Shown here: piece by piece, positions 6,550-33,546 of the stretch
Numbering within the stretch: position 1 is the first letter of the stretch
Layout: each line of letters opens with the position of its first letter
NCBI GenBank assembly: GCA_011322135.1
Contig: DRNP01000004.1
Span: forward strand, 1 to 33,546
DNA length: 33,546 bases
Origin: Candidatus Kaiserbacteria bacterium
GTDB lineage: Bacteria > Patescibacteriota > Minisyncoccia > Phycocordibacterales > Phycocordibacteraceae
Direction: 5' to 3'
The notes under the pieces: generated by a model
Told to the model about the DNA's origin: nothing
What the model saw: the letters and a program-made list of their open reading frames with translations, nothing else
The model's database searches: none
Program-made: the position numbers and the translations under genes

Positions 6550-7164
6550 CTACTTTGTTTTATATACTTGGTCGATGATACCGTATTTTTTTGCTTCATC
6601 AGCGGTCATAAAGAAGTCGCGGTCAACATCTTTTTCTACTTTACTTAATGACTGCCCGGTATTTTTTGCCATAATTTTATTCAATCGGTCGCGTGTTGCG
6701 AGAATATGTCTTGCTGTTATTTCTATATCGGTTGCTTGACCTTCAGCTCCACCAAGTGGCTGGTGAATCATAATTTCCGCATTCGGAAGCGCAAAACGCT
6801 TACCTTTTTTACCTGCAGACAAAAGCCATGCTCCACCTGATGCTGCCATACCAACTACAACAGTAGCAACATCTGGTTTGACGTGATTCATGGTATCAAT
6901 CATCGCCAAAGTTGCGGAAACGGAACCTCCCGGTGAATTGATATATAAATAAATATCTTTTTTAGGGTCTTCCGCTTCCAAAAAAAGTAACTGCGCAATA
7001 ATTAGATTTGCCGTTTCGCTTTCTATTGCACCACCTAAAAAGATTACTCTTTCTTTCAAAAGGCGTGAATAAATATCGTAAGCACGCTCTCCGAATTGCG
7101 ATTTCTCGACAACCATCGGAACCATAAATGATGCGCGCGGTTGATTTTTGTTTAAATCTTGCAT
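6550..7164 (-). CDS. clpP: ATP-dependent Clp protease proteolytic subunit
   Basis: [45 protein letters not shown]...[11 protein letters not shown]...[12 protein letters not shown]. Start trimmed from 7302 because the extension runs into a hairpin repeat and a TTGCCA-17-TATTAT promoter sits at 7174-7202. Confidence 0.93.
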
Positions 7165-21342: not shown

Positions 21343-21373
21343 TTATTGAGTGAGGTTTAACCTCACTCAATAA
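21343..21373. repeat. GAGTGAGGTT/AACCTCACTC palindrome
   Basis: ttattgagtgaggtt t aacctcactcaataa. Confidence 0.85.
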
Positions 21374-22252: not shown

Positions 22253-22297
22253 ATAATTAAAAGTGAGTGAGGTTAAACCTCACTCACTTTTAATTAT
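22253..22297. repeat. GTGAGTGAGGTTAAACCTCACTCAC palindrome
   Basis: ataattaaaagtgagtgaggtt a aacctcactcacttttaattat-type arms, 22 bp. Confidence 0.85.
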
Positions 22298-26685: not shown

Positions 26686-26760
26686 GCCCCGGTGGTGAAA
26701 TGGATATCACGACTGACTTCGGATCAGTTGTTCCGGGTTCGAGTCCTGGCCGGGGCACCA
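26686..26760 (+). tRNA. tRNA-Arg(TCG), CCA encoded
   Basis: GCCCCGGTGGTGAAATGGATATCACGACTGACTTCGGATCAGTTGTTCCGGGTTCGAGTCCTGGCCGGGGCACCA; anticodon loop CTTCGGA. Confidence 0.93.
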
Positions 26761-26769
26761 GAATCTGAC

Positions 26770-26895
26770 TTTTTGATTTTTGTGCGAGACTTTTCAAATA
26801 AGGAAGAATAAGAAATCGGCACAGACCACTTTGTGTCGGCGCTGATGCGTTGCACGAGTGCTCAATTTCAAGTTTTTTTGATGAAATGCGTTCGA
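26770..26895. repeat. Long direct repeat, copy 1 (126 bp)
   Basis: tttttgatttttgtgcgagacttttcaaataaggaag...aaatgcgttcga; matches 28832-28956 with one T-run indel. Confidence 0.97.
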
Positions 26896-26973
26896 AAGAT
26901 GGACTTTATACCGTATTCTTCTTAATTTTGGATGGTGGAGCTATTATAAACAACATGGCTATTTAAAATATAG

Positions 26974-27975
26974 TTATTCATTTTTCTTCTTTAATAACTC
27001 TGGGTACTCAATCGCCATCTGGGTAAATTTATCCATTTCGTAAATCTCATTTATCTCTATTCGGTGAATAATATCTTTAAATTTATTTTTCATTTCTCGT
27101 ATAAGATCACGCAATTCTTTTCTACTTTCAATCTCAATATCTAAGAGAAGTTCCCAAGTTCCCATTCCTTTTACATAATTTATTATATTTGGATGTGAAG
27201 AGCAAAAATTATATAAATCATCGATCTTTTTTTTATCAAAATGAATTATTTTAAAACAAACACGATAAAGGAGTAACCCCAGTTTTTGATAATCAATGGT
27301 GAAAGTAATTTTGGTAATTACTTTGTCTCTTTCTAGTCGATTAAAATGTTTATGCACCAAACCCACCGAAACATCTAGAATTTCTGCTATTTTTGTAAAT
27401 TCCATTCGCCCATCAACAAGAAGTATAGAGATTATTTTTCTATCAATTTCTGAGAGTTTAGTTTTTTTTGTTGTTCCTCCTGATATAGCCGAGTTTTGGA
27501 ATTTGTTTTCTTTATTAATTAGATAGGAACGTGGAAATTTAGTAAAACCTAATCCAACAAAAATATCAGACATGGTGATATATTTACCGTATTTTGAAAA
27601 GATTTCTTGCAAGATTTCATTATGATGGAAAATATCACGGCTAATAATACCAATTAAAACATCGGCATAACCATCAGCTCGTTGAACTATTGGAATGTAT
27701 TTATGCTTATTGAAATATTTGTACATTTCATCTTCTTTTTCTTTTGTTAGTCCTGCAAATTTTAACCAATAACCCCAAAAGAAAGAATAATCCATTTTGT
27801 CGTAGTCTGTGAAAGCCCAAAAGTGCTTAATAATTCCTTTCTCGATTAATTGTTCGAAATGATATTTAACTACTTGTGGGGAAGTTTTTACAGAACGAGC
27901 TATTTTGGAATAACTAGCCCTCCCGTCTTTATCAAGTTCAAACAGTATTTTTTTATCTAATTCTGTTATGTTCAT
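26974..27975 (-). CDS. Double Lrp/AsnC-type transcriptional regulator (two HTH domains)
   Basis: MNITELDKKILFELDKDGRASYSKIARSVKTSPQVVKYHFEQLIEKGIIK... and LSEIDRKIISILLVDGRMEFTKIAEILDVSVGLVHKHFNRLERDKVI. Confidence 0.85.
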   Translation of the reverse strand: MNITELDKKILFELDKDGRASYSKIARSVKTSPQVVKYHFEQLIEKGIIKHFWAFTDYDKMDYSFFWGYWLKFAGLTKEKEDEMYKYFNKHKYIPIVQRADGYADVLIGIISRDIFHHNEILQEIFSKYGKYITMSDIFVGLGFTKFPRSYLINKENKFQNSAISGGTTKKTKLSEIDRKIISILLVDGRMEFTKIAEILDVSVGLVHKHFNRLERDKVITKITFTIDYQKLGLLLYRVCFKIIHFDKKKIDDLYNFCSSHPNIINYVKGMGTWELLLDIEIESRKELRDLIREMKNKFKDIIHRIEINEIYEMDKFTQMAIEYPELLKKKNE

Positions 27976-28128
27976 TTTTTAAATTTTATCAATTTATTAT
28001 CATAATAGTATAGTATTTAAAAAAATACAAGAAATCTATTGAAATCCCTTCTAACAGTGGTATTATCTTCTCAGAAAGTTAAGTAGTTCCTTAAAAACAA
28101 AGTTCGCGAAAGCGACGGGGAGGTAGTT

Positions 28129-28572
28129 ATGAAGATTTTGGTAATTGATGACAAACAAGAAGAGCGCGAGGGCGCAATCAGCCAGTTGAGTCAGCACGAG
28201 CTGACCGTTGTAGATGGCTACAGTACTGGGAAAGAAGCGCTCCAATTAAAGGAGTGGGATGTAGTTCTCACCGACATGCTGATGCCGGACTACGAAGGAG
28301 TACTACAACCTTACGGGCTAGTGTTATCCTTAATGGCGCAAGCTAAGGGGATCCCGGTGGCAGTTGTGTCATCAGGAAACCACCATGACCATCGGATGCT
28401 TTTCGCCGCCGAGGAGGTAGGTGGCAAAGTATCAGAAAACTTCTTTGTATTAGCATCAAGGTGGTGTCCAACCACCACAAACAAGAGAAAGGATTGGTCA
28501 AAAGCCTTAGATATCGTGTTAGGGAAGGCTCGACACGATGTCGAAAGACCAGATATAGCTATATCTGGTTAA
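28129..28572 (+). CDS. Stand-alone receiver-like (response regulator-like) protein
   Basis: MKILVIDDKQEEREGAISQLSQHELTVVDGYSTGKEALQLKEWDVVLTDMLMPDYEG...AVVSSGNHHDHRM; SD GGGGAGG; no output domain. Confidence 0.8.
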   Translation: MKILVIDDKQEEREGAISQLSQHELTVVDGYSTGKEALQLKEWDVVLTDMLMPDYEGVLQPYGLVLSLMAQAKGIPVAVVSSGNHHDHRMLFAAEEVGGKVSENFFVLASRWCPTTTNKRKDWSKALDIVLGKARHDVERPDIAISG

Positions 28573-28578
28573 CTTCTT

Positions 28579-28614
28579 AAGCCCGTGAAGTATCACAACT
28601 TCACGGGCTTTTAT
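28579..28614 (+). terminator. Rho-independent terminator
   Basis: aagcccgtgaagt atcaca acttcacgggctt ttatttt. Confidence 0.85.
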
Positions 28615-28831
28615 TTTCACATCTACGGAATGACTGTATGTTTTAGATACAAATATTTACTAAATCTGGAGGTTTATAGCTAACTCTCTATTTTAACCTT
28701 TTCCAGCCCCACACAAAACCAAGCGGGGACGGCACGGAATACTCTTTTTGAATATCTCTTACTATGCCGTCCGAGTAGTGTCCTATAAATTGCCCGATAG
28801 TGCACGGCACCTAGACAAAATTTCTTCCACA

Positions 28832-28956
28832 TTTTTGATTTTTGTGCGAGACTTTTCAAATAAGGAAGAATAAGAAATCGGCACAGACCACTTTGTGTCG
28901 GCGCTGATGCGTTGCACGAGTGCTCAATTTCAAGTTTTTTGATGAAATGCGTTCGA
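28832..28956. repeat. Long direct repeat, copy 2 (125 bp)
   Basis: Near-identical to 26770-26895. Confidence 0.97.
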
Positions 28957-29047: not shown

Positions 29048-29236
29048 ATGCCTAATTTTGACGGAACAGGCCCGGACGGAAAAGGTCCCCAAACAGGTAG
29101 AGGCCGTGGATATTGTCCACCTGACCAAGATACACCAGACCCAAAGACTCCTTTAGCATCAAGAATGTTTAGAAATCGAAGAAACGGAGCAGGATTTGGC
29201 AGAATGAGAAGGTGGTTTGGTTTCCCAAAAAGATAG
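29048..29236 (+). CDS. DUF5320-like small Gly-rich protein
   Basis: MPNFDGTGPDGKGPQTGRGRGYCPPDQ. Confidence 0.75.
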   Translation: MPNFDGTGPDGKGPQTGRGRGYCPPDQDTPDPKTPLASRMFRNRRNGAGFGRMRRWFGFPKR

Positions 29237-29275
29237 TAGTGTTGGTGTGCAGTATATTATCTTTTAAGTATCGGC

Positions 29276-29313
29276 TTGATAAACCGGCTACATTTAGGTG
29301 GCCGGTTTATCAA
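29276..29313. repeat. 13 bp-arm inverted repeat
   Basis: ttgataaaccggc tacatttaggtg gccggtttatcaa. Confidence 0.8.
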
Positions 29314-29347
29314 TCTGGAAAGTATTTCGATATAAATATATAAATCT

Positions 29348-29629
29348 ATGCCAAGACCATTTTTAAAAAGAAGAATAAATTCGAACCCAAACGTTGTTTT
29401 TTATAAACCTCGAGGGATTCCTTTGCGAGAATTAAAGACAATTAAAATAACTTTAGAAGAATGGGAGTCTTTACGTTTAAAAGACGTTGAAAACATGAAC
29501 CAGATTGATGCTGCAAGAAGCATGAACACATCACAGAGTACTTTCCAAAGGATTTTAACAAGGGCACATAAAAAAATTAGCTTTGCTTTGGTACATTGTA
29601 TGGCGATACAAATTACTATAGATGAATAG
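29348..29629 (+). CDS. DUF134 (UPF0251) family predicted DNA-binding protein
   Basis: MPRPFLKRRINSNPNVVFYKPRGIPLRELKTIKITLEEWESLRLKDVENMNQIDAARSMNTSQSTFQRILTRAHKKISFALVHCMAIQI. Confidence 0.85.
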   Translation: MPRPFLKRRINSNPNVVFYKPRGIPLRELKTIKITLEEWESLRLKDVENMNQIDAARSMNTSQSTFQRILTRAHKKISFALVHCMAIQITIDE

Positions 29630-29879: not shown

Positions 29880-29914
29880 AAAAAGTGAGTGAGGTTAAAC
29901 CTCACTCACTTTTT
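29880..29914. repeat. GTGAGTGAGGTTAAACCTCACTCAC palindrome
   Basis: aaaaagtgagtgaggtt a aacctcactcacttttt. Confidence 0.85.
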
Positions 29915-32979: not shown

Positions 32980-33423
32980 GTGGAAAACTCTGTAAATAAA
33001 CCGACCATGAAAGGGTATGCCTCGCTTCGCGCAGCGCAACCAAATGGTGCATATGCATCACTCGTAACAATAGAAGCGGATCTTACACGCGGATTACATT
33101 CTTTTTCCATAGTCGGTCTTGCGGACCGAGCGGTAGAAGAAGCGCGCGACCGTATTAGTGCTGCAATACGTCACACAGGGTTTAAATCACCAAAGTCAGA
33201 AAATCGCAGAATCGTACTTTCACTTTCGCCGGCAGACCTAAAAAAAGAAGGGTCTCACTATGATGTTGCTCTCGCTCTTGCATATTTAACGGCATCCGGA
33301 GATATAAAACTTCCGGAGACATCGATGCTTTTTGCCGGCGAGCTTGCTCTTGACGGAAAAATACGCTCTGTGCATGGTGTGCTACCGCAAGTCCTTGCAG
33401 GAAATAAACGACCACCGGACTGA
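32980..33423 (+). pseudogene. comM: ComM/YifB (Mg-chelatase-like AAA ATPase) N-terminal fragment, reading frame interrupted
   Basis: YASLRAAQPNGAYASLVTIEADLTRGLHSFSIVGLADRAVEEARDRISAAIRHTGF...FAGELALDGKIRSVHGVLPQVLAGNK then out of family into RPPD*; the AAA+ domain is missing. Confidence 0.8.
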
Positions 33424-33546
33424 GGTCCGGTGGTTTTGGGTTTGCCCGCTTAATCGCGGGCTGATACGTGGTTAATCAGAGAGCAACTTGTTGAAGAGCG
33501 ATGGCTGATCAACTTCATTGTGGTGGTATTGATGTTTAACGTACCG
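33411..33546 (+). mobile_element. Possible left end of an IS110-type insertion sequence (structured leader plus transposase N-terminus)
   Basis: Hairpins accaccggac-tgag-gtccggtggt and gcccgc-ttaatc-gcgggc, then ATG at 33501 reading MADQLHCGGIDV (resembles the IS110 DEDD N-terminus), followed in frame by TAA near the window end. Confidence 0.45.

Follow-up and report, generated by a model that had tools for sequence, protein, structure and literature searches.

Genomic islands at tRNA genes carry acquired genes right behind the tRNA, with direct repeats on both sides and a cargo that varies among relatives. A similar arrangement is produced by Campbell-type insertion-duplication (a single crossover), after which direct repeats of the recombining stretch flank the insert, which can be deleted by reversal. 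Integron cassettes are small one- or two-gene units carrying attC core sites. At the level of gene regulation, local Lrp-type regulators often control a divergent gene from a shared intergenic region (PMC8707732, PMC10201364): both in PA2577/PA2576 (PMC8707732) and in BarR (PMC10201364), regulator and partner are transcribed apart from one such region. In the literature on Patescibacteria we found nothing directly on point about islands at tRNAs.

The locus described here lies in a window of 33,546 nt, which is the whole stretch of DNA analyzed, and shares traits with each of these systems (Table 1). As in tRNA islands, acquired genes lie behind a tRNA between direct repeats (hereafter R); however, these repeats are 126 bp long, are located outside the tRNA and include none of its sequence, there is no integrase, and the whole island spans only 2 kb. 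The likeness to Campbell-type integration comes from the arrangement only, as neither a donor molecule nor an empty site was seen here. The island resembles integron cassettes in its small size and in its flanking repeats of ~120 bp, but R has no attC core sites and the locus has no integron integrase. Lastly, regulator and partner are transcribed apart from one intergenic region, as in PA2577/PA2576 and BarR, but here two wHTH domains are joined in one chain of 333 aa and the partner is an orphan receiver protein, swapped for other genes in relatives.

Table 1. Features of the repeat-bracketed island and its surroundings (positions in the window)
Feature	Position	Strand	Basis and remarks
Species-specific palindrome, left inversion breakpoint	22267..22283		
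tRNA-Arg(TCG)	26686..26760 (including CCA)	+	ARAGORN and Rfam; left border of the variable gap
Direct repeat R, copy 1	26770..26895		126 bp, 40% GC
Double-Lrp regulator	26974..27975	-	Two AsnC-type wHTH domains and a C-terminal RAM-like domain (Pfam); 29% GC
Predicted bidirectional promoter region common to both genes	27976..28066		DNA homology and conserved -35/-10
Orphan receiver-domain protein	28129..28572	+	Divergent from the regulator; 48% GC; Response_reg, E 1e-7 (Pfam)
Intrinsic terminator of the receiver gene	28579..28610	+	
Direct repeat R, copy 2	28832..28956		125 bp
DUF5320 and DUF134 genes	29048..29629	+	Pfam; further gap cargo
Species-specific palindrome, right inversion breakpoint	29889..29905		

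A first-pass annotation of this DNA had described the two repeats as near-identical and only one T apart in a homopolymer, and the alignment bears this out. Positions 26770-26878 match 28832-28940 at all 109 nt (100% identity); beyond this stretch, the copies match again for about 16-22 nt after a one-T indel (a run of 7 T vs 6 T). The spacing of the copies is 2062 bp, and BLAST aligns them at 99.2% identity over 126 columns (E 9e-58). The exact match of 109 nt is not of chance origin. The annotation was also right in placing the start of copy 1 at 9 bp past the CCA end of tRNA-Arg (CCA end 26760, R start 26770) and in reading ~1.9 kb with a double-Lrp regulator and a receiver-like protein between the copies (1.94 kb, domains confirmed by Pfam).

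The 657-kb assembly contains exactly two copies of R, and the repeat was not found in 57 relatives. Among 397 genomes of the order, only partial matches of 18-41 nt (79-100% identity) were present outside its own genome, and we judged these to be due to chance. No match was obtained with core patterns of R (21-24 nt, exact) against viral and genome contigs, with blastn against phages and plasmids, or with spacer plus R in ten selected genomes, the last being a search without positive control. R as a dispersed repeat common to relatives, phages, plasmids or viral contigs was rejected, having no convincing match. A recent duplication, as had been proposed, is supported on the scale of the genus. 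Instead of keeping both copies at fixed positions, the relatives lack R and the island alike. The ancestral state was not seen, as none of the genomes had one R without the island.

To place the repeat pair in its genomic context, we counted direct repeats of at least 70 bp and at least 95% identity lying 0.3-6 kb apart. The genome under study has three such pairs in 298 kb, while none was found in 311 kb of congeners or in 159 kb of other class members. The three pairs are R, a 118-bp pair on contig C35 and a pair of palindromic elements on contig C28, the latter 2.1 kb apart and with a related copy on contig C3. The C35 repeats (locus L105, G000:C35 1-118 and 946-1063) are direct, 96.6% identical and 945 bp apart; they bracket a NYN-domain gene with an apparent terminator of its own, and the contig begins exactly at its repeat. 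A kinship of R with the C35 repeat was discarded, the two being unrelated in sequence. Contig ends in the assembly overlap by 143-145 bp, so the assembly word length (~145) was probably longer than R and both copies would have been spanned together with their flanks. As the copies also differ by one base, it is unlikely that the R pair is an assembly duplication. The arrangement of the R-bracketed island is real and unusual. At the end of the window (32980-33546), the comM reading frame ends after 147 aa on meeting a terminator-rich repeat, and the final 145 bp are also present at both ends of contig C9.

The position of the island was then compared with the gene order of the genus. In congeners the order is rpsO / xer-xth-cca-tRNA-Arg / tRNA-Gly-tRNA-Pro-tRNA-Gly, complete in two genomes (G074 and G006) and largely present in 16 others; in each congener examined, tRNA-Arg adjoins cca. 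Behind tRNA-Arg is a gap of variable size, 26 bp to 2.7 kb across 18 congeners, with unrelated cargo that includes decarboxylase-like, membrane-protein and putative endonuclease-like ORFs (names taken only from reading the sequence). The window carries the block from xer to tRNA-Arg in reverse orientation with respect to the flanking DNA, and the palindrome GTGAGTGAGGTTAAACCTCACTCAC lies at both inversion breakpoints; its core has 16 copies in the 657-kb genome and none in 436 kb of congener DNA. Reversing the inversion between 22267 and 29889 yields the order of G074 and G006, and brings the island and the DUF5320/DUF134 genes back into the gap between tRNA-Arg and tRNA-Gly. This places the island, with good support, in a site known to vary within the genus. 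DUF134 was absent from the 16 congeners searched; a homologue (56%) is present in another family (G044), with an adjoining DUF5320-like ORF. R itself could not be tied to the inversion, because it is missing at the other breakpoint. A further copy of the palindrome family lies at 21350-21366. Elsewhere, a putative HTH and 'YWGEGDK' endonuclease-like family was observed directly beside tRNAs, behind tRNA-Arg in four loci (L035, L045, L046 and L052) and next to tRNA-Met in another (L075, 718-1533).

Within the island, the regulator matches the HTH_AsnC-type model in two stretches (E 2e-17), and its AsnC_trans_reg (RAM) match at 244-298 scores 18.0 bits vs a curated cut-off of 25. The gene is absent from 57 congeners, and its homologues in other families of the class, including Parcubacteria and Moraniibacteriota MAGs, are 69-80% identical; for comparison, the cca protein has 62-79% identity to its counterparts in congeners. 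In the one class member allowing both comparisons (L083), the identity is 43% for the cca protein and 74% for the regulator. Furthermore, the GC content of the regulator is 29%, vs 40% for the window. Absence in congeners, high identity in other families relative to cca, and deviating GC all point to lateral transfer, and a foreign origin of the regulator is well supported. No relatives of the cargo were found in viral contigs. In one relative (L077, 698-12001), sequence reading places the double-Lrp gene in a series where TrmB-like regulators alternate with amino-acid-binding-protein-like genes, a neighborhood that hints at amino-acid sensing.

DNA similarity to all relatives ends at 28045, inside the promoter region shared with the receiver gene, and 11 of 12 loci have divergent -35/-10 elements (TTGAAA or TTGATA / TATAAT-like) at a matching position. 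The divergent partner is less constant. The closest double-Lrp relative (L081) has a receiver-protein homologue there (36%, E 3.5e-21); the partner is receiver-like also in L086 and, weakly, in L088, while L085 has a similar small protein with no Pfam match. In the other double-Lrp loci, the divergent partners are unrelated genes. The lateral origin of the receiver gene is less certain than that of the regulator, as its clear homologues are all distant. The double-Lrp protein probably controls its own promoter and the divergent receiver promoter.

Several origins of the repeat pair can be weighed against these data. The first-pass annotation had suggested the scar of an integrative element, and the tRNA neighborhood could indeed reflect site-specific integration at the 3' end of tRNA-Arg by an integrase since lost. 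In this genome, five of 16 sampled tRNAs have a copy of their 3' end (10-22 nt) 100-200 bp downstream, so tRNA ends here may be integration targets; the same frequency indicates that our test is able to detect such scars. Nevertheless, the final 25 nt of tRNA-Arg are not repeated anywhere else in the window (≤3 mismatches), R begins outside the tRNA, and the interval between the copies holds the regulator and the receiver gene only, without any recombinase; the XerC/D-like gene nearby is conserved across the genus. A faint match (GGCACC-AGA) 28 bp before copy 2 was rejected as a tRNA remnant because shuffled sequences match as well (p 0.76). The missing att copy already largely refutes an integration scar, an origin that is very improbable. 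The tRNA 3'-end copies deserve a description of their own: across the genus they lie 66-270 bp downstream (5/16 own and 9/71 congener tRNAs; e.g., L120 ~6741-7143, L121 9017-9285 and 11714-12251, L038 near 1581, L042 near 16158), often with a common motif, CGAAAGCCGGAGC ... GTGACCGAG, between tRNA and copy, and look like a small tRNA-end element. Another proposal was that R represents two copies of a small RNA. More generally, R could be a functional element, for instance a small RNA, leader or operator, whose identity selection or gene conversion has preserved; the near-identity of non-coding DNA and the position of copy 2 upstream of the DUF5320 gene speak for this. However, the fold of R did not exceed that of shuffled sequences on either strand (z -0.26 to -0.97), the only Rfam match up to E 1 was at the tRNA, R was found to hold no strong promoter or terminator, and it is unconserved in relatives. 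Since recent duplication sufficiently explains the identity, we consider a functional element rather unlikely and the small-RNA proposal unsupported.

R could also be the recombination site of a cassette system, in which single units with ~120-bp direct repeats are moved by a host recombinase acting in trans. The second candidate cassette on C35, the lack of such repeat pairs in 311 kb of congeners and the self-contained look of both cargoes are coherent with this idea, to which we give a small but real chance. Against it, the R and C35 repeats differ in sequence, neither was found as a full copy at other sites, and R is without attC cores, terminal inverted repeats or a linked recombinase. 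Indeed, attC core sites (RYYYAAC / GTTRRRY) are missing on both strands of R and its terminal inverted repeats do not score above shuffles, so that R was rejected as an attC site and as the end of a MITE, IS or composite transposon. A variant of this idea, that the species gains and loses small self-contained units at locus-specific direct repeats of ~120 bp without a linked recombinase, with R and C35 as examples, is marginally more doubtful; if true, it would be a cassette-like mode of insertion without precedent for Patescibacteria in the literature searched. As small as for the cassette system is the chance that R is a low-copy dispersed intergenic repeat that brackets acquired genes by coincidence and not causally. 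The genome does hold dispersed elements (the 16 palindromes, the C3/C28 palindromic element and the 143-145-bp contig-end repeats), but R has exactly two copies, is not palindromic, has no terminal inverted repeats, and flanks the acquired unit with one copy near each end. Finally, a metagenome assembly in 46 contigs and a regulator GC strongly off that of the contig could raise the suspicion of an artefact or chimera. This is scarcely credible given the inferred word length of ~145, the single-base difference between the copies and the fit of the locus to the variable gap of the genus.

The explanation that we favor is that an acquired two-gene unit was inserted behind tRNA-Arg, that the resident spacer was duplicated by the insertion, and that the unit can be deleted by homologous recombination; we hold this to be about an even bet, and the duplication mechanism in particular is an inference with a comparable chance of being right or wrong, no empty site having been seen. 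According to this scenario, a self-contained regulatory unit, with the double-Lrp and receiver genes transcribed apart from their shared promoter region, would have been acquired laterally and would have landed in the gap behind tRNA-Arg, a site accepting different cargo across the genus. The insertion itself would have duplicated the resident spacer, giving the two copies of R. A donor molecule with this stretch could have recombined through a single crossover, or a break with staggered ends could have been filled in; our data fit both routes alike. The copies would then not be att sites, and a dedicated recombinase would not be needed. Through RecA-type recombination between the two copies, the island would be lost and a single R would remain, and in this sense the island is presumably deletable. 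The GC content of R (40%) equals that of the window and differs from those of the regulator (29%) and the receiver gene (48%), which weakly favors a resident spacer over donor DNA; on the other hand, the lack of R in all relatives fits equally well with R having arrived with the cargo. The second repeat-bracketed gene, on C35, may point to a recurrent process and not to one accident.

Gene gain and loss in Patescibacteria, which have very small genomes, are little understood. In the present case, a regulator has moved between orders together with its conserved promoter region. It now adjoins a receiver gene at a variable locus linked to a tRNA, where the long flanking repeats would make loss of the island easy. 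The double-Lrp gene and its divergent partner, which is exchangeable and often a receiver protein, form a recurring small module that is functionally testable.
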